DNA of 29,560 nucleotides, taken from positions 1 through 29,560 of IMG/VR virus record IMGVR_UViG_3300009128_000097; one strand, given 5' to 3'. Origin of the DNA: a virus. Made by a program: the position numbers and the translations under genes. This document shows, in pieces, positions 1 through 22,003 of the stretch. The first letter of the stretch is position 1, and each line of letters begins with the position of its first letter. The notes below the pieces were generated by a model, which was given only the letters and a program-made list of their open reading frames with translations, made no database searches and was not told the DNA's origin.

Positions 1-156
1 CAAACGGAGGTAGATGTTAAGAAACGATACGAAAAACGTATGCAGCAAGCCGGAATAAAGTCAGGGGACGAAGCCGGCGACGGAGCAGAGGAACAGGAAT
101 GGCAGGCGTCAACCTGGCATCTGCGTGAAAAATTACGGTTTAAGGAGGAAGAATGA
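1..156 (+). CDS. 3' end of a head gene, possibly prohead protease (partial)
   Basis: The frame is open from the first base and ends in TGA at 154-156, giving the last 51 residues of a protein that starts outside the window. The visible tail is hydrophilic and rich in Lys, Glu and Gln, ending in a charged stretch with Arg-Glu-Lys-Leu-Arg. No domain can be recognised. In HK97-type phages the gene directly before the capsid gene is usually the prohead protease, or the portal if the protease is fused or missing, so this is an inference from position. Its stop codon overlaps the first ATG of the capsid gene (ATGATG with TGA inside), which suggests translational coupling. Confidence 0.6.
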   Translation, partial: QTEVDVKKRYEKRMQQAGIKSGDEAGDGAEEQEWQASTWHLREKLRFKEEE

Positions 157-1370
157 TGAACGTACTAGAAATGAAAGAAAAACGGGCAACGCTGATCAAC
201 AACGCCCGTGATCTGCTCGACCGCGAAGAAAACGAAAAACGTGATCTGTCGCAGGAAGAGTTCAACCAGTATAATCTGATGTGGGAAGACATCGAAAAAC
301 TGGCCAAAAAGATCAAGACGCACGAACGCCAGGAATCAGCCGAAACTGAGCTGCGTTCCCCGGTAACGCCCGGCACCCGGCCGCCTGTAGGTGGTCCCCC
401 GGGAGTCACCGACGAAAACAGGGCAGAGGTGCAGATGCAGGAATACCGCAACTATTGCCTGGGCCGCGGGATCGGTCCGGAGCTTCGCGCCCTGCAGGTC
501 GACAAGGATATCCAGGCCGGATACCTGGTCCCGCCCATCGAGTGGATCGACAAACTGATCAAAGAGATGGACGACGAGGTATTTATCAGGCAGTTTGCCG
601 ACGTCTACCAGGTAACGAGTTCCGACAGCCTGGGCTGTCCGGCGCTTGACAACGACCCGGCGGACGCCACCTGGACCAGCGAGATCGGGACCGTGACCGA
701 AGATAGCACGATGAGCGTGGGCAAACGGGAACTGAAACCGCAGCCTTGCCGGAAACTACTCAAGGTTTCCAAGACGCTGCTGCGCAAGGTTCCCAGCGCC
801 GAAGAACTGGTAAGGTCGCGTCTGCGTTACAAGTTCGCGATCACTCAGGAGAAGGGGTTCCTCACCGGTACCGGCGCCAACGAACCGTTGGGCGTGTTCA
901 CTGCGTCTGCTAACGGGATCAGTACTGGCCGGGACGTATCCACCGGTAACAGCGCTACTGAAATCGGTGCCGATAACCTGTTCGAACAGAAATACAACAT
1001 CAAGGCCAGTTATCGGCCGCGTCTGCGCTGGGTGTTCCATCGCGATGCAGTCAAACAGATCGCCAAGCTCAAAGACGGCGAAAGCCGTTTCCTGCTGCGG
1101 CCAGATCTGCGGGTTGGCCAGGATCTGGACACCCTGCTCGGCTATCCGGTGCATGAATCGGAATACGCACCGAACACGTTTACCACCGGCTTGTATGTCG
1201 GTATCCTCGGCGATTTCAGTTTCTACATGATCGCGGAATCGTTGCAGTTTGAAATCCAGCGCCTGGTCGAGCTCTACGCAGCCACCAATCAGGACGGATT
1301 CATCGGCAACCTGGAGTGCGACGGGCTGCCTACTTTGGAGAGCGCATTCTCCAGGGTGAAATTGGGTTAG
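156..1370 (+). CDS. Major capsid protein, HK97 fold
   Basis: This protein forms the icosahedral head shell. The first ~70 residues are a charged, helical, coiled-coil-like segment, as expected for the delta (scaffold) domain that the prohead protease removes in HK97. A Pro/Gly-rich linker at about 70-90 follows, then a domain with features of the Phage_capsid family: a GYLVPP-type segment near residue 125, a central acidic stretch, and the segment around FLTGTGANEPLG, which is typical of these capsids. The length (~404 aa) is normal for the family. There are two in-frame ATGs, at 153 and 156. The Shine-Dalgarno AAGGAGG at 142-148 sits 4 nt from the first and 7 nt from the second, so 156 is preferred. 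The position just before the connector and tail genes agrees. Confidence 0.93.
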   Translation: MNVLEMKEKRATLINNARDLLDREENEKRDLSQEEFNQYNLMWEDIEKLAKKIKTHERQESAETELRSPVTPGTRPPVGGPPGVTDENRAEVQMQEYRNYCLGRGIGPELRALQVDKDIQAGYLVPPIEWIDKLIKEMDDEVFIRQFADVYQVTSSDSLGCPALDNDPADATWTSEIGTVTEDSTMSVGKRELKPQPCRKLLKVSKTLLRKVPSAEELVRSRLRYKFAITQEKGFLTGTGANEPLGVFTASANGISTGRDVSTGNSATEIGADNLFEQKYNIKASYRPRLRWVFHRDAVKQIAKLKDGESRFLLRPDLRVGQDLDTLLGYPVHESEYAPNTFTTGLYVGILGDFSFYMIAESLQFEIQRLVELYAATNQDGFIGNLECDGLPTLESAFSRVKLG

Positions 1371-1388: not shown

Positions 1389-1811
1389 ATGAACATGCAT
1401 CCTAACACGAAAGTTACCAAAGTTCTCGATTATGCCGCCGCCGGGACCGGGACCACCAACGGCACCGAAATAGATATGCAGGGTTTCACCGGTGTCGTGT
1501 TTGTGGGCGCAGCTGTTGGAACGGCTGATTCCGGGAACTATGTCAAGGCGCAGCAGGATACCGCGACCGGTATGGCCAGCGCTGCCGATCTCGAGGGTAC
1601 GAAAATTACTCCCGGGGACGATGGCGACGCGATCAAGATGGACATCTACAAACCGCTCGAGCGTTATGTGCGGATCGTGGCTGTCCTGGGCGCGAGCTCT
1701 ACCCTGGGCGATTGCTATGCGATTCAGTATGGTCCGGTCAAGGCACCGACCAGCGACGCATCGACCATTGATGCTGAACTGAACGTATCCCCGGCCGAAG
1801 GCACGGCGTAA
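1389..1811 (+). CDS. Small capsid-associated (decoration-like) phage protein
   Basis: This 140-residue protein sits 18 bp downstream of the capsid gene, with a good ribosome site (CGGAGG at 1374-1379). It is rich in Ala, Gly and Thr and predicted to be mostly beta. The C-terminal part holds an AIQYGPVKAP segment followed by a short tail ending in SPAEGTA, a pattern I recognise from uncharacterised proteins placed right after the capsid gene in many siphophages. It has no signal peptide, unlike the next three genes. A head decoration or head-stabilising role is inferred from position only; no enzyme motif is visible. Confidence 0.75.
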   Translation: MNMHPNTKVTKVLDYAAAGTGTTNGTEIDMQGFTGVVFVGAAVGTADSGNYVKAQQDTATGMASAADLEGTKITPGDDGDAIKMDIYKPLERYVRIVAVLGASSTLGDCYAIQYGPVKAPTSDASTIDAELNVSPAEGTA

Positions 1812-1890: not shown

Positions 1891-2874
1891 ATGCGAAAAA
1901 TAGCATACGCTGTCCTGGCGGTGTTCCTTGTTTGCGGTATCGCATACGCGGCAGGGTACCGGCCTGGGACAAACTACAACGAACCGGGCGGCGAACGAAC
2001 CGTGATACAGGGTTCGCTTGACGTTGTTTCCGGTGGCGATATGGACATCGAATCGGGTGCCACGCTGGTTGTAAATGGTACTCAAACGTTTGGCTCGGCG
2101 CCTGTTCCTGCAACGGCCGACGGTGCTGCTGTTGGGTCCGCCACGTTGGAATGGTCAGGTTTCTATCTGGCCGACGGCGGGATCATTTATTTCGGCGACG
2201 ACCAGGACGTGACAGTGACCCATGTAGCTGATACTGGAATACAGATCAATGCGGCCATGAAATACGGTATACGCGATTCTGCAATCTACATCAATTCCAG
2301 TACAGACGGGCAAATGGACATCGATGCGGATACCGAAGTGGAGATCGCAACAACTACGCTCGATGTCAATGCGAATGCCGACGTATCGGGGACTATGGCC
2401 ATCGGAGGTATTACCACTGTCGGAGCTGCTATCATATCGGATACCACCAATACCGACGCGCTGGGATCTGCAGAGGTAACATTTGCTGATGCGTTCCTGG
2501 GCGACGGCGGGGTATTGAACTTCGGCGAAGATCAGGACGTCACGCTGACCCATGTCGCTGATGTCGGTCTGGACCTGGTGGGCGAATTAGACGTTTCCAC
2601 TAATGTATATATGGGGACGAACAGTTATGGTGCAGCACATGGTGTCTCAACTACTGCACTACTTCAAATCCAGCATGGTACAGCAGCATTGTCCGGAACG
2701 ACTGTCGAAGTCGATATCCCGATTGATTACTCAGCGGCGCCGACCATCGTTCTGACGAACAAAGATGGAACCGGAGGCGTTCAGGTATCAGCAAACGCAA
2801 CCGGGGCAACCTTCGAGGTCACTGTCGAAAACAGCGGCAACGATGTATACTGGGTTGCTGTTGGCGCACCTTAA
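1891..2874 (+). CDS. Secreted repeat protein with fibre-type GDDQDVTLTHV repeats
   Basis: This 327-residue protein begins with a clear Sec signal peptide: n-region MRK, a hydrophobic core, and an AYA site giving cleavage after about residue 21. The mature part is Thr/Ala/Gly/Asp-rich and probably all beta. Two copies of a ~21-residue repeat (at about 94-114 and 204-224) carry the core DGG-[IV]-x-[YN]-FG-[DE]-DQDVT-[VL]-THVAD. This repeat is familiar from phage tail or head fibre proteins. The C-terminal ~70 residues look like a separate beta domain. Fibre-like repeats behind a signal peptide are odd, because virion proteins normally assemble in the cytoplasm. It may be a cell-surface protein carried by the phage or an exported fibre component. 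The ribosome site is AAAGGAA at 1877-1883. Confidence 0.8.
   Translation: MRKIAYAVLAVFLVCGIAYAAGYRPGTNYNEPGGERTVIQGSLDVVSGGDMDIESGATLVVNGTQTFGSAPVPATADGAAVGSATLEWSGFYLADGGIIYFGDDQDVTVTHVADTGIQINAAMKYGIRDSAIYINSSTDGQMDIDADTEVEIATTTLDVNANADVSGTMAIGGITTVGAAIISDTTNTDALGSAEVTFADAFLGDGGVLNFGEDQDVTLTHVADVGLDLVGELDVSTNVYMGTNSYGAAHGVSTTALLQIQHGTAALSGTTVEVDIPIDYSAAPTIVLTNKDGTGGVQVSANATGATFEVTVENSGNDVYWVAVGAP
2170..2562 (+). repeat. Diverged direct repeat (two 63-bp copies) in the secreted fibre-like gene
   Basis: Copies at 2170-2232 and 2500-2562 are in frame and encode the DGG...FG-D/E-DQDVT..THVAD unit. Many differences fall at third codon positions, so the protein pattern is kept while the DNA has drifted. 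This points to an old internal duplication rather than an assembly error. Confidence 0.8.
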
Positions 2875-2955
2875 CCAATCAACCCGGCCAGGCGGGGGAC
2901 CAGGCCGCGTACCTGGCAAAATCGCGGTCATGGCCAATAATTGGAGGTCATGAAA

Positions 2956-3408
2956 ATGAAGTATAACAAGATACTCCTGGCGGCGGTACTGTTGGCCGTA
3001 TGTATTATACCCGCCGTCAAAGCTGACACAATCGTTCCCCTGGTAGAAAAAAATCAGGGCATGATAATGATTACGTTTGATTGGACCAGCGACGCCAGCG
3101 GGGACGCAACCGGCACAACTACGCTCGCATTCACCGGTTGTATCCAGGAAATCGATTTTATCCCGGACAGCGGCGGTACGCAGCCGACATCGTTATATGA
3201 TGTCGTGGTCGAAGACGAAGACGGAGTTGATAAGGCTCTCAGCCAGGGCGCGAACCTGAGTAACACAGTAGCAACGCAGCCGGGCGGCCTGGGCGGGTTG
3301 ATAATGATAGGATACTCGCAGATCACTGTAACAGTTTCAAACGCCGGAAACGCCAAAGGCGGCAAAGTAAAAGTTTACATCGATGGTACCGCGCACGGGG
3401 ACCAGTAA
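2956..3408 (+). CDS. Small secreted beta-rich phage protein
   Basis: The Shine-Dalgarno GGAGG at 2943-2947 is 8 nt from the ATG at 2956, while the ATG at 2950 is only 2 nt away, so 2956 is chosen (150 aa). The protein starts with MKYNK, a ~15-residue hydrophobic stretch and an AVKA cleavage site at about residue 23, a typical signal peptide. The mature part resembles a small family of structural-region phage proteins: a Trp-Thr-Ser-Asp start, a central PTSLYDVVVEDEDGVD segment, and a C-terminal AGNAKGGKVKVYIDG strand pair. Family members known to me mostly lack a signal peptide. The function is unknown. It lies between two other signal-peptide genes and is probably co-transcribed with them. 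Confidence 0.78.
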   Translation: MKYNKILLAAVLLAVCIIPAVKADTIVPLVEKNQGMIMITFDWTSDASGDATGTTTLAFTGCIQEIDFIPDSGGTQPTSLYDVVVEDEDGVDKALSQGANLSNTVATQPGGLGGLIMIGYSQITVTVSNAGNAKGGKVKVYIDGTAHGDQ

Positions 3409-3434
3409 ACAATAAACGGAAAGAGGACATAAAA

Positions 3435-5981
3435 ATGCGACGGTTTAATGCTCTGATAATCGGAGTCATACTATTAATGGCGTCCGCTTCGAGTGTCGGG
3501 GCGGAACCGCGTCTGATGGGGCCGGGCGACAAGTTCGTGGACGGCGCAGACACTATCCTGGACTGTGACAGCGACAAAGTATTATTCGGCGTTACAATAG
3601 AGATCGAAGCCGGCGGGATCAAGTTTGCCGATGATACAGAGATGACAACGGCAGCTACCGGGACAATTGGCGGATCCACCGGGGCAACCGATAACGCAGT
3701 GCTCCGGGCCAACGGTGTCGGTGGTTCAACGTTACAAAGCAGTGGGCTGATAGTAGACGACAACGCTGATGCTACCGGCCTGCGGGATCTGACAATTACC
3801 GGCAACCTGACTACCGAAAGCGTATACACGGGCGATATTGCCCTGGGCGCTACGATCGAACATACCATGTCGACAGCAGGGACCGGCAATTATCCAATGG
3901 CGGCGTATCGTATGGGATCTGTCACGCATGGAATAACGTCAAACGATATCACCACAAACGATTTTATCAATATACAGCCATATGATCGCACCGATGGCGG
4001 CGTCCAAATCAGCGGTTTAAGTAGCACGGCATTAATTACCGGCCTGGGCTTAACTGGTGTAATAGGCAGCGACAACCCGCAGGATTCCATACCAGCTATC
4101 CTGATGAAAGCGGCGAAAAAGAATGGCGCATCAGTACAAAACCTGGGGGCAGCCGAAACCGTTTTTAAACTAAAAAACAATTCCGTAGATATGCTCACGT
4201 TTATCGGTGATGGAACGGCGACGTTCACCTGGAACGCTATTATTCAGGGAGCAAGTTTAGAAGTAGGCACGACAACACAGGCCGGGGCTATTGAAATCTA
4301 TGACGGGTCGAACCATACCACGCAGATTAAAACGCAGGGGCAGGCGGCCGATGTCGTTTATACGCTCCCTGCCAACGACGGTGATGCAAGTCAATTCTTA
4401 CAAACGGACGGTTCCGGGACACTCACCTGGGCGGCGGCTAGTGCTTCGTTAAAACTGAACGAGATAGATAATCCTGATGGCAGTAAAACGTTTGATTTAG
4501 ATGGACAATACGAAATCGGGTTCACATCAAACGAGGATACTAATGCAACCAACATAGTTTCAATTGCAAATACCACGGCGAACCAGACAGGCAACGTGAA
4601 TTACTTGTATATATCATCGGCTGATAACAGAGATGCCAATTGCCATTTTATCAATATTGAAGATGGTGGCGGGGGGTTATTTCATGTTGACGGTATCGAG
4701 GTCGTAGTCAATGAAGGTAGCCAAAATTGGCCTGATTTTCGTTGTGAAGGCGCAACAGATAGCAGTTTACTTGTGACTGATGCTAATGCAGATAAAGTCG
4801 GCATAGGTGTCGGTATCCCAGGCGCAAAACTAGAAGTAGAAAGTTCTGATGCTTTAAATACTATAACTTTATTGTTAGATCAAAATGATACAGGAACATC
4901 AGCTTTATTAGTTGGTCAAAATTCTGGGACGGGCGATCATATGCAATTTGATACTAATGAATTTGTGGTATCAAGTACTGGTGCTGTTAGTGGTACCGGT
5001 TTGGCGTTTACTCGGGCATCAGGAGATATGGATTTCACTGCATCAGCAGACGGATTCAACTTCACTCTCGGTGGTGCTGCTGGTGATGACTTTATAGTAG
5101 ACACATCTACTCTTGTGGTGGAGAGTGATAATGATAGGGTTGGTATCGGCACTACTGCACCAGCATGGAACTTCCAAGTAGAAGAAAGTCAGAACGCCGG
5201 AACAACCGGCCAGGTAAGGAACCCCAACGGCGGGACAGCGGCGTATGCTCAACAGATAGTGTCTAATTCCACAAATGAAGCCGATAGCATTAAGCTTATG
5301 TGTATGGGTACAGCCTACACTACAAACGGAGCGTTTGAACAAGACGCTGGACTGTTATTAGCCGATGCTAATCTTTCTGGTGGATTGAACATCGTGACCC
5401 GCGCCGCTTCTGATATTGGTTTTTATACTGGCGGCTACGCCGCTGGTAATCTTGAAATGACAATAACATCTGATGGTAAGGTCGGCATCAATGACACAAC
5501 TCCAGCACAAGTTTTATCAGTAAATGGCAGAATTGAAATGGCGACCTGGACAGCAGACGGTGACAATGCCGCGTATCAGGATACTGCCACAAACTGTATC
5601 GCCCTGGTAACATCAGATCGACGTAGGAAAAAGGACATAGAACCGATTATATCTGTGCTTGACAGGATCATCGAAGTTCCAGCCGTAAAATATAAAGATA
5701 TCGACGGTAAAAACGATAAAGTCAAGTTCGGTCTGATAGCGCAAGATATCATGCCTTATTTCCCGGAGGCTGTTTTTACCTGGTCGAAACCTGCTGTCAT
5801 GGCAGAGGACGAAAACGGTGACATGATAGAGATAGCGCCCGCAGAAGAGGTATACGGTATCCATTATGACAAACTGCCCGTTATCCTGTGGAAGGGGATA
5901 CAGGAACAGCAGGCAATGATTATGCAGCAGGCCAGGGCGATCACTGCCCTGGAACGCAGGCTATCAGCATTGGAGGAATAA
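3435..5981 (+). CDS. Secreted fibre/adhesin-like protein with C-terminal Peptidase_S74 chaperone
   Basis: This is an 848-residue, fibre-like protein. Residues 1-24 form a signal peptide (MRR, hydrophobic core, SVGA site). The long middle has beta-rich repeats, including two VGIG units (about residues 455-465 and 571-581) of the kind seen in tail fibres and bacterial surface proteins, and a TLPANDGD...FLQTDGSGTL segment common in fibres. The last ~125 residues are a Peptidase_S74 domain, an intramolecular chaperone that trimerises the fibre and then cuts itself off. The catalytic Ser727 and Lys732 of the S-D-R-R-x-K motif are present, and a coiled coil ends the chain. Bases of about 4440-5540 are visibly more AT-rich than the flanks, suggesting module exchange. 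A signal peptide plus S74 suggests display outside the inner membrane, but a virion role is not excluded. Confidence 0.88.
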   Translation: MRRFNALIIGVILLMASASSVGAEPRLMGPGDKFVDGADTILDCDSDKVLFGVTIEIEAGGIKFADDTEMTTAATGTIGGSTGATDNAVLRANGVGGSTLQSSGLIVDDNADATGLRDLTITGNLTTESVYTGDIALGATIEHTMSTAGTGNYPMAAYRMGSVTHGITSNDITTNDFINIQPYDRTDGGVQISGLSSTALITGLGLTGVIGSDNPQDSIPAILMKAAKKNGASVQNLGAAETVFKLKNNSVDMLTFIGDGTATFTWNAIIQGASLEVGTTTQAGAIEIYDGSNHTTQIKTQGQAADVVYTLPANDGDASQFLQTDGSGTLTWAAASASLKLNEIDNPDGSKTFDLDGQYEIGFTSNEDTNATNIVSIANTTANQTGNVNYLYISSADNRDANCHFINIEDGGGGLFHVDGIEVVVNEGSQNWPDFRCEGATDSSLLVTDANADKVGIGVGIPGAKLEVESSDALNTITLLLDQNDTGTSALLVGQNSGTGDHMQFDTNEFVVSSTGAVSGTGLAFTRASGDMDFTASADGFNFTLGGAAGDDFIVDTSTLVVESDNDRVGIGTTAPAWNFQVEESQNAGTTGQVRNPNGGTAAYAQQIVSNSTNEADSIKLMCMGTAYTTNGAFEQDAGLLLADANLSGGLNIVTRAASDIGFYTGGYAAGNLEMTITSDGKVGINDTTPAQVLSVNGRIEMATWTADGDNAAYQDTATNCIALVTSDRRRKKDIEPIISVLDRIIEVPAVKYKDIDGKNDKVKFGLIAQDIMPYFPEAVFTWSKPAVMAEDENGDMIEIAPAEEVYGIHYDKLPVILWKGIQEQQAMIMQQARAITALERRLSALEE

Positions 5982-5986
5982 TAACA

Positions 5987-6238
5987 ATGAAAAAGATCAA
6001 GTTATTGAGTCAATACTGCGGGCCGAAGGGCAGCTACAAGGCCGACACAGAAATCGATATAGCCGTGTTCGGGAAAGCCGAAGCAGAAATGCTTGTCAAA
6101 GGCCGGTACGCGGAATACGTCGGGCAGCCGGTGTTGTCAAAAATGAAAGAAGTCGCATTGGCGCCTGATGATGTCGAGGTAGCCGCAGTAGTCAAACGAC
6201 CGAAACGCAGGAAGAAATCCAAACCAAAGAAGGATTAA
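5987..6238 (+). CDS. Small basic-tailed phage protein of unknown function
   Basis: The ATG at 5987 has GGAGG (5972-5976) 10 nt upstream; a longer reading from 5888 would overlap the S74 gene and has no such site. The product is 83 residues. The first ~55 are of mixed charge, with a LVKGRYAEYV segment like the small phage proteins that sit before the head-tail connector. The last ~17 are almost entirely Lys/Arg/Pro (KRPKRRKKSKPKKD), which would suit binding to DNA or to an acidic surface. It lies 5 bp before the gp6-like connector gene. No function can be assigned. Confidence 0.72.
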   Translation: MKKIKLLSQYCGPKGSYKADTEIDIAVFGKAEAEMLVKGRYAEYVGQPVLSKMKEVALAPDDVEVAAVVKRPKRRKKSKPKKD

Positions 6239-6242
6239 TACT

Positions 6243-6836
6243 ATGTCTGTATTGAACCTGGCAACAGCTCCGGCAGAGGAACCGATAACGACGGCCGAAG
6301 CAAAAGCGCATTTGCGTATTACGCATAGTGACGATGATACCTACGTCGCTACACTGATCAAGGTTGCGCGTTACGTGGCGGAAACCATCACCAATCGAGC
6401 GATAATAACGCAGACCTGGGATTGGTACCTTGACGGGTTCCCGGGTGTCGATACGATCCAGGTGCCGAAACCGGCGCTGCAATCCGTAACATATATCAAG
6501 TACACGGACGAAGACGACACGGTGAACACGTTATCGAGTGACGATTATGTTGTTGACATCTATTCGACATACGGGCGCATCAAACTGTCAGATACAGCAA
6601 CCTGGCCGTCGGATACCTTGACAGAGCTCAACGGGGTCAATATAAGGTTTGTTGCCGGGTACGGGCTGGCTGCTGACGTCCCTGAACCGATCAAACAGGC
6701 CGTGCTGCTACTGATAGCGAACTGGTACGAAAACAGGGAACCGGTCACGTTTGGTAAGGGGATCCCGAAAAACGTCCCGATGTCTGCGAAGTACCTGTTG
6801 TATCCGTACCGTGTCTGGGGGTTGACGCTGCGATGA
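6243..6836 (+). CDS. Head-tail connector (adaptor) protein, HK97 gp6-like
   Basis: This 197-residue protein fits the gp6-like/phiE125 gp8 family that docks under the portal and extends the DNA exit channel. Visible features: the N-terminal pattern EEPITTAEAKAHLRI followed by an acidic D-D-D turn and a long helix with R-Y-V-A-E-x-x-T-N-R, the central YIKYTDED...Y-V-V-D segment, the strand FVAGYG, and the C-terminal helix P-x-x-I-K-Q-A-V-L-L-L-I-A-N-W-Y-E-N-R-E. These are the hallmark blocks of the family and the length is typical. The last bases overlap the next start (ATGA at 6833-6836), so the two connector proteins are probably translated in a coupled way. Confidence 0.9.
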   Translation: MSVLNLATAPAEEPITTAEAKAHLRITHSDDDTYVATLIKVARYVAETITNRAIITQTWDWYLDGFPGVDTIQVPKPALQSVTYIKYTDEDDTVNTLSSDDYVVDIYSTYGRIKLSDTATWPSDTLTELNGVNIRFVAGYGLAADVPEPIKQAVLLLIANWYENREPVTFGKGIPKNVPMSAKYLLYPYRVWGLTLR

Positions 6837-8401: not shown

Positions 8402-8752
8402 ATGCCTAGAACAGCATTGACGAAATCAACAGCGACCGGATCGTATGCCAGCGCCTGCGTGACGCTCACCAGGACCGCGGCTGATACCTCGAACCAGAAC
8501 AAGTTTACCGCGACCGGTAACGATCTGCTTATATTCGAGAATACCAGTGCAGATACAGCATACACGGTGACGATCACCAGCGAGAATGATAAGTACGGCC
8601 GCAGCGGTGATATCACTACTGAAGCAATCGGGTCCGGGGTTATCAAGTTCTACGGGCCTATGAAAGTACACGGGTGGCGCGATTCCGCGGGTGTTATCAA
8701 TTGTGAAGCAAGCAACGCAAATGTCAAAATCGCAGTGATAGCGTTGCCTTAG
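8402..8752 (+). CDS. Small virion-associated beta protein of the tail region
   Basis: This 116-residue protein begins 2 bp after the previous stop. It is Thr/Ala-rich and beta-rich, with the blocks ARTAADTSNQNKF, ATGNDLLIFENTS, TVTITSENDKYGRSGDIT, FYGPMKVHGW and VKIAVIALP. I recognise this block order from a common family of uncharacterised structural-region phage proteins, usually near the tail tube gene. Whether it decorates head or tail cannot be read from the sequence. It has no signal peptide and no enzymatic motif. Confidence 0.78.
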   Translation: MPRTALTKSTATGSYASACVTLTRTAADTSNQNKFTATGNDLLIFENTSADTAYTVTITSENDKYGRSGDITTEAIGSGVIKFYGPMKVHGWRDSAGVINCEASNANVKIAVIALP

Positions 8753-18870: not shown

Positions 18871-19352
18871 AAGAGTTATCAATGCCTGTCCTGAAACCGA
18901 TTCCCATACCAACAAAGAAAGCGCCATACCTGGTCGCATTGTGGCGTTGGCTTACTTCGATACGTCGATGGGAACTACAGGCCGATTGGTACTGGTATTT
19001 TGATACAGATAACATCGAGGTCATTGTACCGGCAGGGTACATATTCGACGGGGCAAGTATACCGCGCATATTCTGGTTTGTGCTGTCACCAACGGGGTTA
19101 TTGTTGATCCCGGGTTTGATACATGATTATGCTTATGAGCATGATTATATTCTGACATCGGCCGGGGACAAATACAGAGAAAACGCCGGCCGCTTCTATT
19201 GGGACAGGGTATTTAGGGACACGGCCATCAAGATCAACGGATTCCATATCATCAACTATATGGCATGGTTCGCGTTGGTCCTGGGCGGTTGGGCCGCCTG
19301 GTGGTCACATCGGAGAAGGGGAAACGAGGTAAACAAAGATGAAACGATATAG
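18867..19352 (+). CDS. DUF1353 family protein with C-terminal membrane segment
   Basis: This 161-residue protein has the two DUF1353 signatures: FDGASIPR at 60-67 and the HDYAYEHD block at 86-93. A hydrophobic segment lies at about 130-147, followed by a basic tail (HRRRG). DUF1353 genes are found next to endolysins in many phages; their function is unproven, though the conserved Asp/His residues suggest a metal site or enzyme. It overlaps the amidase gene by 4 bases and the next gene by 14, so it is firmly part of the lysis cassette. Confidence 0.85.
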   Translation: MKELSMPVLKPIPIPTKKAPYLVALWRWLTSIRRWELQADWYWYFDTDNIEVIVPAGYIFDGASIPRIFWFVLSPTGLLLIPGLIHDYAYEHDYILTSAGDKYRENAGRFYWDRVFRDTAIKINGFHIINYMAWFALVLGGWAAWWSHRRRGNEVNKDETI

Positions 19353-19722
19353 TTGTGCATTAGTATTGGTGTTACTAGTGGTTTGCGCTATACCTGCTAT
19401 GGCGGTGCAGTTGGATATCAAAGGTAACGCCGGATATTTCCATACTTTCGGCGGTGAAACTTATCGCGGGATAGCTGTCAAGTTTGCAGAGAAAATGATG
19501 TTCGGTATGCCGTTCACTTTTTCACTGGCAGGTATCGAAGAGTCCACCGAAATAGGTGATCTGGATTCAAGCATCGTCGCATCGACCAGCGTAAAAGAAC
19601 TGATGAACAAAGCCGGGTTCGATTACATATTCCCTGAACAGGTAGAAATCGGTTTTTTCTACAGCAGGGCGCAGGGCGACGATAAGGCAGGTATCTTTTT
19701 CGCCATCGGGTATGAGTTTTAA
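19339..19722 (+). CDS. Small secreted, outer-membrane-like protein
   Basis: This 127-residue protein starts inside the DUF1353 gene. Residues 1-22 form a classic signal peptide (MKRYSC, a Leu/Val core, AMA site). The mature ~105 residues have alternating beta-type strands (V-Q-L-D-I-K-G-N-A-G-Y-F; I-F-F-A-I-G-Y-E-F) and end in Phe, the terminal residue the BAM machinery prefers for outer-membrane barrels. At this length it could make only a small barrel or part of one. It could alter the host surface (for example exclude other phages) or act in lysis. I recognise no family. It is the last gene before the terminator. Confidence 0.72.
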   Translation: MKRYSCALVLVLLVVCAIPAMAVQLDIKGNAGYFHTFGGETYRGIAVKFAEKMMFGMPFTFSLAGIEESTEIGDLDSSIVASTSVKELMNKAGFDYIFPEQVEIGFFYSRAQGDDKAGIFFAIGYEF

Positions 19723-21168: not shown

Positions 21169-21356
21169 AGGTAGAACTTGAGAAAAGGGTGCAGCCGAAA
21201 ACAGTGGCTGAATACCTGAACATCTCCAGGCAGATGGTGATGAAAGCGATCAGGGAGGAACGGCTGCCGGCTGACAAGGTTGGTGGTATCTGGTTGATTA
21301 AGATTAAGGACGTCGAGGCCTGGGTTGAATCCGGCGGGGATCTACGCAAACAGTGA
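21165..21356 (+). CDS. Excisionase-like MerR-type helix-turn-helix protein
   Basis: This 63-residue protein has an HTH_17 pattern: T-V-A-E-Y-L-N-I-S-R-Q-M-V at residues 13-25, then helix and wing residues ending in G-G-I-W-L-I-K-I-K-D-V-E-A-W. Proteins of this size and pattern directly before an integrase are usually recombination directionality factors (Xis). GGGAGG before the ATG is a good ribosome site. Its stop overlaps the integrase GTG (GTGA at 21353), so the two are probably made together, which is unusual because int and xis are often controlled separately. Confidence 0.83.
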   Translation: MKVELEKRVQPKTVAEYLNISRQMVMKAIREERLPADKVGGIWLIKIKDVEAWVESGGDLRKQ

Positions 21357-22003
21357 AAGCACGATACTGGACAATAACCGAAGACAAGTTCCTGCTCCAG
21401 GCCGAAGTCGAACAGTTATTCGATTACCTGGGGGCACGTACTCGGAGCTTGCGCGGGTTGATGAATTATTTCATTATCGACCTGATGATCAATACTGGGT
21501 TGAGGGCGTCGGAGGTCTGTACCTTGCCGGTCAACAATACGCCAGCGGTCAGGGACCGCGATATAATCCACGTGATAGGTAAAGGCCGTAAACCGCGCCA
21601 GGTAAGCGTAACGGGCCATTTTTCGCAGCGCTTACGGCGCTATACGGAGCAGGTAAGGCCTGCATACATACCTGTGGGTGTCTCAAAAAGCGATTATAAA
21701 ACCGCACCGTTACTGCTTTACACGGAATACCGGACAGCGTTCACCAGGCGCAATTTGTGGAAACGTATTGCCGGGATCGGGCGCCGGGCCGGGATCAAAC
21801 TGGCGTTGTATCCGCACCGGCTGAGGCACACCTATGCGACGCAATTGTATTGGGCGACGAACGATATATTGCTGGTGCAGGCGCAGCTCGGGCATTCGTC
21901 TGTTGATACCTCGAGCGTTTACGCAAAGATCGATAACGGGGCCCGGTCCAGGAAACTGTTGGAAGTTGGAATATTGAATATGGGGGCGAGGGCTAAACAA
22001 TGA
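21353..22003 (+). CDS. Short tyrosine recombinase (integrase/Xer-like, catalytic domain)
   Basis: This 216-residue protein has all tyrosine recombinase active-site residues: Arg51 (T-G-L-R-A-S-E-V), Lys78 (G-K-G-R-K), His155-x-x-Arg158 (HRLRH), His181 (L-G-H-S-S) and Tyr190 (S-V-Y-A-K). Only ~30 residues precede the catalytic fold, so both the arm-binding and most of the core-binding (SAM-like) domain of normal ~330-400 aa phage integrases are missing. It starts with GTG, overlapping the Xis-like gene. Possible roles are integration with a simple site, resolution of genome multimers or inversion of a fibre segment. No attachment site could be identified. Confidence 0.88.
   Translation: MKARYWTITEDKFLLQAEVEQLFDYLGARTRSLRGLMNYFIIDLMINTGLRASEVCTLPVNNTPAVRDRDIIHVIGKGRKPRQVSVTGHFSQRLRRYTEQVRPAYIPVGVSKSDYKTAPLLLYTEYRTAFTRRNLWKRIAGIGRRAGIKLALYPHRLRHTYATQLYWATNDILLVQAQLGHSSVDTSSVYAKIDNGARSRKLLEVGILNMGARAKQ

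Follow-up and report, generated by a model that had tools for sequence, protein, structure and literature searches.

To our knowledge, the assembly of tailed phages is regarded as an entirely cytoplasmic process. Virion proteins that carry signal peptides and reach the particle outside the cytoplasm, as is proposed below for a tailed phage, are represented by the coat proteins pIII and pVIII of filamentous phages; these phages differ, however, in being extruded through the membrane without an icosahedral capsid and without lysis, and pIII and pVIII are unrelated to the proteins described here. Phage-encoded proteins that are exported or lipidated and reside at the envelope are also represented by the superinfection-exclusion lipoproteins (Llp of T5 and Cor of phi80-like phages), but these are neither homologues of virion proteins nor encoded in a head operon. 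Here we describe three consecutive genes, termed P1, P2 and P3, in the head operon of the virus record IMGVR_UViG_3300009128_000097 (a linear IMG/VR record of 29,560 bp, analysed at its full length and hereafter called the window), which encode fibre- or decoration-like proteins with predicted signal peptides. In the open-access literature searched, no description of phage head fibres or decoration proteins with signal peptides was found.

Three known groups of virion proteins are closest to those encoded here. The phrog_12102 head fibre-like proteins (weakly also phrog_6994) share with P1 its N-terminal domain and the slot that follows the capsid gene. Endosialidase-type tail and head fibres end in an S74 domain (PF13884), which P3 possesses in complete form with its Ser and Lys; unlike these fibres, P3 is encoded within a head operon and has a signal peptide at its N-terminus. 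In the head spike of RcGTA, the spike base (Rcc01079, family NF048002) forms pentamers bound to the capsid pentamers by their N-termini, as seen by cryo-electron microscopy, and bears the head fibre (Rcc01080) on the capsid surface (PMC7296036). A complete spike-base homologue occurs in the head operon of one of the phage loci compared here (L162; other loci are likewise referred to by an L and a number); it carries a signal peptide, whereas none is mentioned for the spike in the RcGTA papers searched.

Signal peptides and gene slots in the head operon

Sequence analysis confirmed that predicted Sec-type signal peptides are encoded by three genes in a row, which lie between the genes for the major capsid protein and the head-tail adaptor Ad1 (Table 1). 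All three N-termini consist of a basic n-region, a 12-residue hydrophobic core (mean hydropathy 2.8-3.4) and an AxA-type site with small residues at -3 and -1, the features of Sec/SPI signals (cleavage marked by a slash: P1, MRKIAYAVLAVFLVCGIAYA/AGYR; P2, MKMKYNKILLAAVLLAVCIIPAVKA/DTIV; P3, MRRFNALIIGVILLMASASSVGA/EPRL). For P3 the calling rule favoured cleavage at ASA/S, and VGA/E, the site named in an earlier note on this DNA, is equally plausible. When ATG, GTG and TTG starts were compared, a Shine-Dalgarno sequence was found for P1 at 1891 only, while the best ones for P2 precede 2950 and 2956, so that the single P2 start at 2956 given earlier had to be widened to either position. The start and signal of P3 are the least certain of the three, as initiation at an in-frame ATG (3477), whose GGAG lies farther away, would remove the signal present from 3435. 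Applied to related loci, the same rule was positive for 19 of the 323 genes in the slot, against 11 of the 715 genes that flank the slot on both sides (1.5%), a per-gene rate at which three consecutive signal genes would arise by chance with a probability of about 4e-6. The earlier note's two basic observations, three signal-peptide genes flanked by capsid and Ad1 genes inside the head operon and a working-looking Peptidase_S74 domain in one product, were thus borne out. The recurrence of the locus in two further metagenome contigs (99.97% identity over 13,978 bp and 99.79% over 5,720 bp) excludes an assembly artefact of a single record.

Capsid-based searches returned 140 loci with a capsid gene. 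In the nearest relatives (L110, L117, L119 and L134) the gene order is capsid, phrog_5707, P1-type, P2-type, a counterpart of the window's gene at 5987, and Ad1, and their P1-type and P2-type proteins lack a signal (MSYQPKVYRDNGGDRQVIAGG... and MTYIERHIINLVSDSSGDATGYTP...); L110, L117 and L134 also cluster with the window on the capsid tree. Judged from this gene order, P1 and P2 fill the slots of ordinary head-operon genes and only P3 is an addition. The earlier description of the genes as inserted therefore holds for P3 and not for P1 and P2. Signal-less homologues, which had been named as a sign of mis-annotated starts, do exist, but both forms occupy the same slot, the signal appears to have been gained or lost repeatedly, and divergent relatives carry signals. 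The exact trio is kept as a block in the near-identical contigs only, whereas pairs of slot genes for predicted exported proteins recur: a further extended gene follows the P1-type gene in 10 of 23 loci where the latter is extended, compared to 3 of 95 where it is signal-less. A signal recorded in L073 in the first survey was rejected, as it stemmed from an internal start in a cementing-like gene.

P1 matches phrog_12102 over residues 27-65 and was aligned with 19 relatives. It contains the N-terminal Y..E.GG....V..G domain and lies, like the phrog_12102/head-fibre-like slot proteins, behind the major capsid and cementing-like genes and before Ad1, a cultured example being gene 35 of Azospirillum phage Cd. 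Such proteins begin at the domain; since a 20-residue signal peptide stands ahead of it in P1, the sequence identifies P1 as a variant rather than a plain member of this group. Homology to the signal-less proteins starts directly after the cleavage site, the domain alignment behind it is unbroken, and the near-invariant Y and G columns are identical in both forms, which would fit a common binding partner. A fibre repeat also occurs twice in P1 (as ..VGSATLEWSGFYLADGGIIYFGDDQDVTVTHVADTG.. and as ..LGSAEVTFADAFLGDGGVLNFGEDQDVTLTHVADVG..). The repeat was rejected as a guide to role: whole-P1 queries mostly find fibres of other phages that share only ...LADGGVIYFGDDQDVTLTHVADTG with P1, and these are signal-less and lie outside the slot. 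The AlphaFold2 model of P1 has a predicted local distance difference test (pLDDT) score of 42, and nothing of note was found when the PDB was searched by sequence with profiles of the P1 and P2 types.

The homology of P2 to signal-less beta proteins of head operons spans its mature length. Identity to the protein of L301:4950-5318, which lies in the slot between major capsid and Ad1 genes, is 51% over 105 residues, and hhalign links P2 to the signal-less family of the nearest relatives (94%, 1.2e-7). The P2 model is mostly beta (pLDDT 69), with no significant match in the PDB and one viral match at 8e-6 (32%, a 125-residue protein). In P3 the S74 domain occupies residues 727-780 and covers positions 1-57 of the 58 in the profile; no tblastn match to P3 was found among 50,697 phage records, and the other capsid-type loci examined lack an S74 counterpart. 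Long fibre-like proteins with signals are encoded directly after P2-type genes in L305:5353-6738 and L312:5376-9482 (1,368 residues), the former matching a virion structural phrog (8e-9). As the capsid genes of L305 and L312 are unmatched to that of the window, the sequences suggest that the export theme may extend beyond the window's capsid family.

Extended forms, cysteine pairs and other virion families

Scanning all loci with a P1-domain pattern and a hidden Markov model yielded 142 non-redundant proteins. P1 and 35 others are extended at the N-terminus by a hydrophobic stretch, be it a signal peptide, a lipobox or a membrane anchor, and 106 are not, proportions that reflect sampling by pattern and capsid similarity and are not an unbiased frequency. 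The short proteins start 0-8 residues ahead of the domain, whereas the extensions comprise 17-57 residues with a strongly hydrophobic core and nearly always a basic n-region. AxA signals are found in the window, L258, L272, L137, L116 and L104, lipoboxes in L123 (LSGC), L249 (LAGC), L251 (MAGC), L218 (LAGC), L253 (AVAC) and L187 (LPGC), and extensions resembling uncleaved anchors in L147, L163, L193 and L282; in 12 of the 36 a Cys lies late in or just behind the core. The extended genes recur in about 35 divergent phages and have good ribosome-binding sites, and two of them (L213 and L258) had no match among cultured phages. Extended and signal-less forms were never seen together in one locus. 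On a quick capsid tree of 126 rows, where the window is placed among signal-less phages, the character changes 13 times, with at least 10 changes forced by well-supported branches, which points to repeated gain or loss of the signal.

Some lipobox-type relatives of P1 are very long (L246, 655 residues; L249, 817 residues), and the C-terminus of the L246 protein matches a phage depolymerase C-terminal domain (PF25692). A caspase-like protein of 165-205 residues with His and Cys motifs (LLYFDLHG ... VVFAxSCF) is usually encoded directly after the extended head-fibre gene. It is present in 10 of the 36 extended loci (L147, L163, L164 at 3652-4146, L193, L212, L219 at 3593-4138, L231, L251, L253 and L282) and in 0 of the 106 signal-less loci; the L219 copy had no match in Pfam, PHROG or NCBIfam.

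Disulphides form in oxidising compartments. At least two cysteines within the first 35 domain residues occur in 18 of the 36 extended proteins and in 0 of the 106 short ones (Fisher 3e-13, a p-value inflated by relatedness). The spacings of these pairs differ (C.VY.EQGC, CY.PQGGASFVC, CY.EQGGAK.VAASGC), so they probably do not descend from one ancestral event. The pairs are a feature independent of the signal and fit, as expected for exported proteins, an oxidising compartment. The proposal that these proteins bear export signals is thereby supported at the sequence level, in divergent relatives as well as in the window, many of the relatives having cysteine pairs in their mature domains.

Besides head-fibre-like proteins, other virion families are found with signals. 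L162:4298-4627 encodes a signal peptide followed by a complete spike base of the RCAP_Rcc01079 family (NF048002, 85/85, 2e-30), a family with no match among P1-P3. Because this family attaches to the capsid by its N-terminus, removal of the signal is probably needed for capsid binding. L137:10397-10813 encodes a signal and a 42% identical full-length homologue of the window's signal-less 8402-8752 protein, in a locus which also has an extended head fibre. A signal peptide was also noted in L175:4625-5116 (minus strand), whose link to the 8402-8752 family is weak. Within the P2 family, the alignment of the L309 protein with the signal-less P2-type protein of L305 (43%) begins at residue 19 of the former, immediately after the signal, and at residue 2 of the latter, and L303/L304 have two consecutive signal-bearing genes.

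The window and its neighbouring genes

The window is probably a fragment. It contains head, tail and lysis genes of a siphovirus of the HK97/lambda-J type, which is probably temperate as an integrase is encoded at 21353-22003. From left to right the head region comprises the genes of Table 1 up to Ad1, followed by head closure, neck and terminator genes, the small 8402-8752 gene, and the major tail protein, tape measure and tail tip genes. The cementing-like gene matches in position a gene annotated as 'capsid cementing protein' in Streptomyces phage Chymera, and the positional counterpart in L013 of the small gene before Ad1 matches phrog_2616. The fourth signal-peptide gene of the window adjoins amidase and DUF1353 genes, and the C-terminal ...GYEF of its product weakly suggests a host with an outer membrane. 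No host was assigned when the genomes around the Chloroflexi OLB13 prophage were searched.

Table 1. Coordinates of features in the window
Feature	Position	Strand	Evidence or remark
HK97-fold major capsid protein, slot anchor	153-1370	+	PF05065 2.8e-48; phrog_10 1.3e-60
Cementing/decoration-like protein, no signal peptide	1389-1811	+	phrog_5707 8.4e-7
P1, head-fibre-like, predicted exported	1891-2874	+	327 residues; signal peptide, phrog_12102 domain, two fibre repeats, C-terminal beta domain
P1 signal peptide	1891-1950	+	AYA/A
P1 phrog_12102 domain, common to signal-less head-operon proteins	1969-2085	+	E 2.8e-4; alignment
P2, predicted exported homologue of small head-operon beta protein	2950 (or 2956)-3408	+	150-152 residues
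P2 signal peptide	2950-3024	+	VKA/D
P3, predicted exported fibre with C-terminal S74 chaperone/peptidase	3435-5981	+	848 residues
P3 signal peptide	3435-3503	+	ASA/S or VGA/E
P3 Peptidase_S74 (intramolecular chaperone) domain	5613-5774	+	PF13884 7.3e-11; SDRRRKKDI motif
Small gene usual before Ad1, no signal peptide	5987-6238	+	34% match to L012 gene in the same place
Head-tail adaptor Ad1, other slot anchor	6243-6836	+	phrog_442 4.7e-34; PF05135
Small protein before major tail protein, signal-less here	8402-8752	+	42% full-length homologue with signal peptide in L137
Fourth signal-peptide gene, after amidase	19339-19722	+	Beta-rich; C-terminus ...FFAIGYEF like outer-membrane barrel

Export and docking weighed against other explanations

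The explanation tentatively favoured here is that fibre and decoration proteins of the capsid surface, once exported or anchored in a membrane, encounter the virions outside the cytoplasm. P1 and P2 would be ordinary capsid-surface proteins, of the head-fibre and small decoration types respectively, with prefixed signal peptides, and P3 an added S74-type fibre with a signal of its own. In the late phase the three would be exported by Sec and cleaved, their counterparts in other phages being lipidated or left anchored; folding would take place beyond the cytoplasm, with disulphides in some phages, and the S74 domain would let a trimeric P3 fibre fold without cytoplasmic helpers. Binding to the capsid would occur only when virions emerge at lysis, since the capsid-facing domain is kept. 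The signals, the shared domains, the one-for-one replacement, the repeated gain or loss and the cysteine pairs of relatives are all read from sequence, and from them we infer export itself and, above all, docking on virions. Several points weigh against this explanation. Lipid- or membrane-anchored versions would tie the fibres to a membrane, which fits a use at the cell surface as well as docking, and contact with virions would be brief in a diderm host, where a protein with an AxA signal ends up in the periplasm. Except for the spike base, it is from gene position and family annotation that the signal-less phrog_12102 and P2 families are taken to belong to the virion. Some of the 13 changes on the capsid tree may be swaps of whole genes rather than signal gains, P1 of the window lacks the cysteine pair, and signals were called by a simple rule. 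The rule-based calls, together with the alternative P3 start, are also what would favour mis-called starts or chance hydrophobic N-termini, an artefact that is very improbable given the low per-gene rate, the three consecutive genes and the recurrence with good ribosome-binding sites in divergent phages.

Less probable than export followed by docking is that the exported proteins never join virions: display in the periplasm or on the infected cell's surface would make them adhesins, receptor-binding decoys or superinfection blockers, a head-operon gene having been given this new role by addition of a signal. Forms with a lipobox and a long linker or anchor (LPGC...EEPVARSY, ...APRPPEAAPTPVATVAAQ...) would suit membrane display, and the restriction of the caspase-like gene to extended loci hints at a distinct module. 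However, the genes sit in a late head operon, several different virion families would be exported together, and the mutual exclusion of the two forms means that every such change of role would cost the phage its head fibre. Docking is preferred to a purely cell-surface role because both forms retain the domain with its conserved residues, because the predicted exported form replaces the cytoplasmic one, and because signal removal would restore the capsid-binding N-terminus of the spike base. The hydrophobic N-termini could instead be anchors within the particle, as the head fibre of RcGTA binds its base by a hydrophobic, Leu-rich N-terminal peptide (PMC7296036). That peptide has nine residues, whereas the cores here have at least 12 and are accompanied by basic n-regions and AxA sites or lipoboxes; the same type of extension precedes different families (spike base, P2 type and 8402 type), and cysteine pairs in the following domain are confined to extended forms, all of which makes anchoring within the particle improbable. 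A slimmer chance still is given to tethered assembly, where anchored or lipidated fibres hold capsids or virions on membranes and virions leave with membrane patches or in clusters. Anchored and lipoprotein forms do make up a large share of the extended set, but the positive-inside rule places the mature domain across the membrane from the assembling capsids, and the window's own three signals look cleavable.

Somewhat more tentative than the docking proposed for the window is its extension to several lineages of tailed double-stranded DNA phages, which may independently have shifted some of their virion assembly outside the cytoplasm: capsid fibres, spike bases and decoration proteins would be exported, mature with disulphides or lipid and join finished heads in the envelope or at lysis. 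The matched signal-less and signal-bearing pairs constitute built-in controls for direct tests. Export signals on capsid-surface homologues, present in roughly one in four of the sampled family members and switched repeatedly, would mean either that particles are finished outside the cytoplasm or that virion parts are reused on the envelope of the infected cell, and either would be new.

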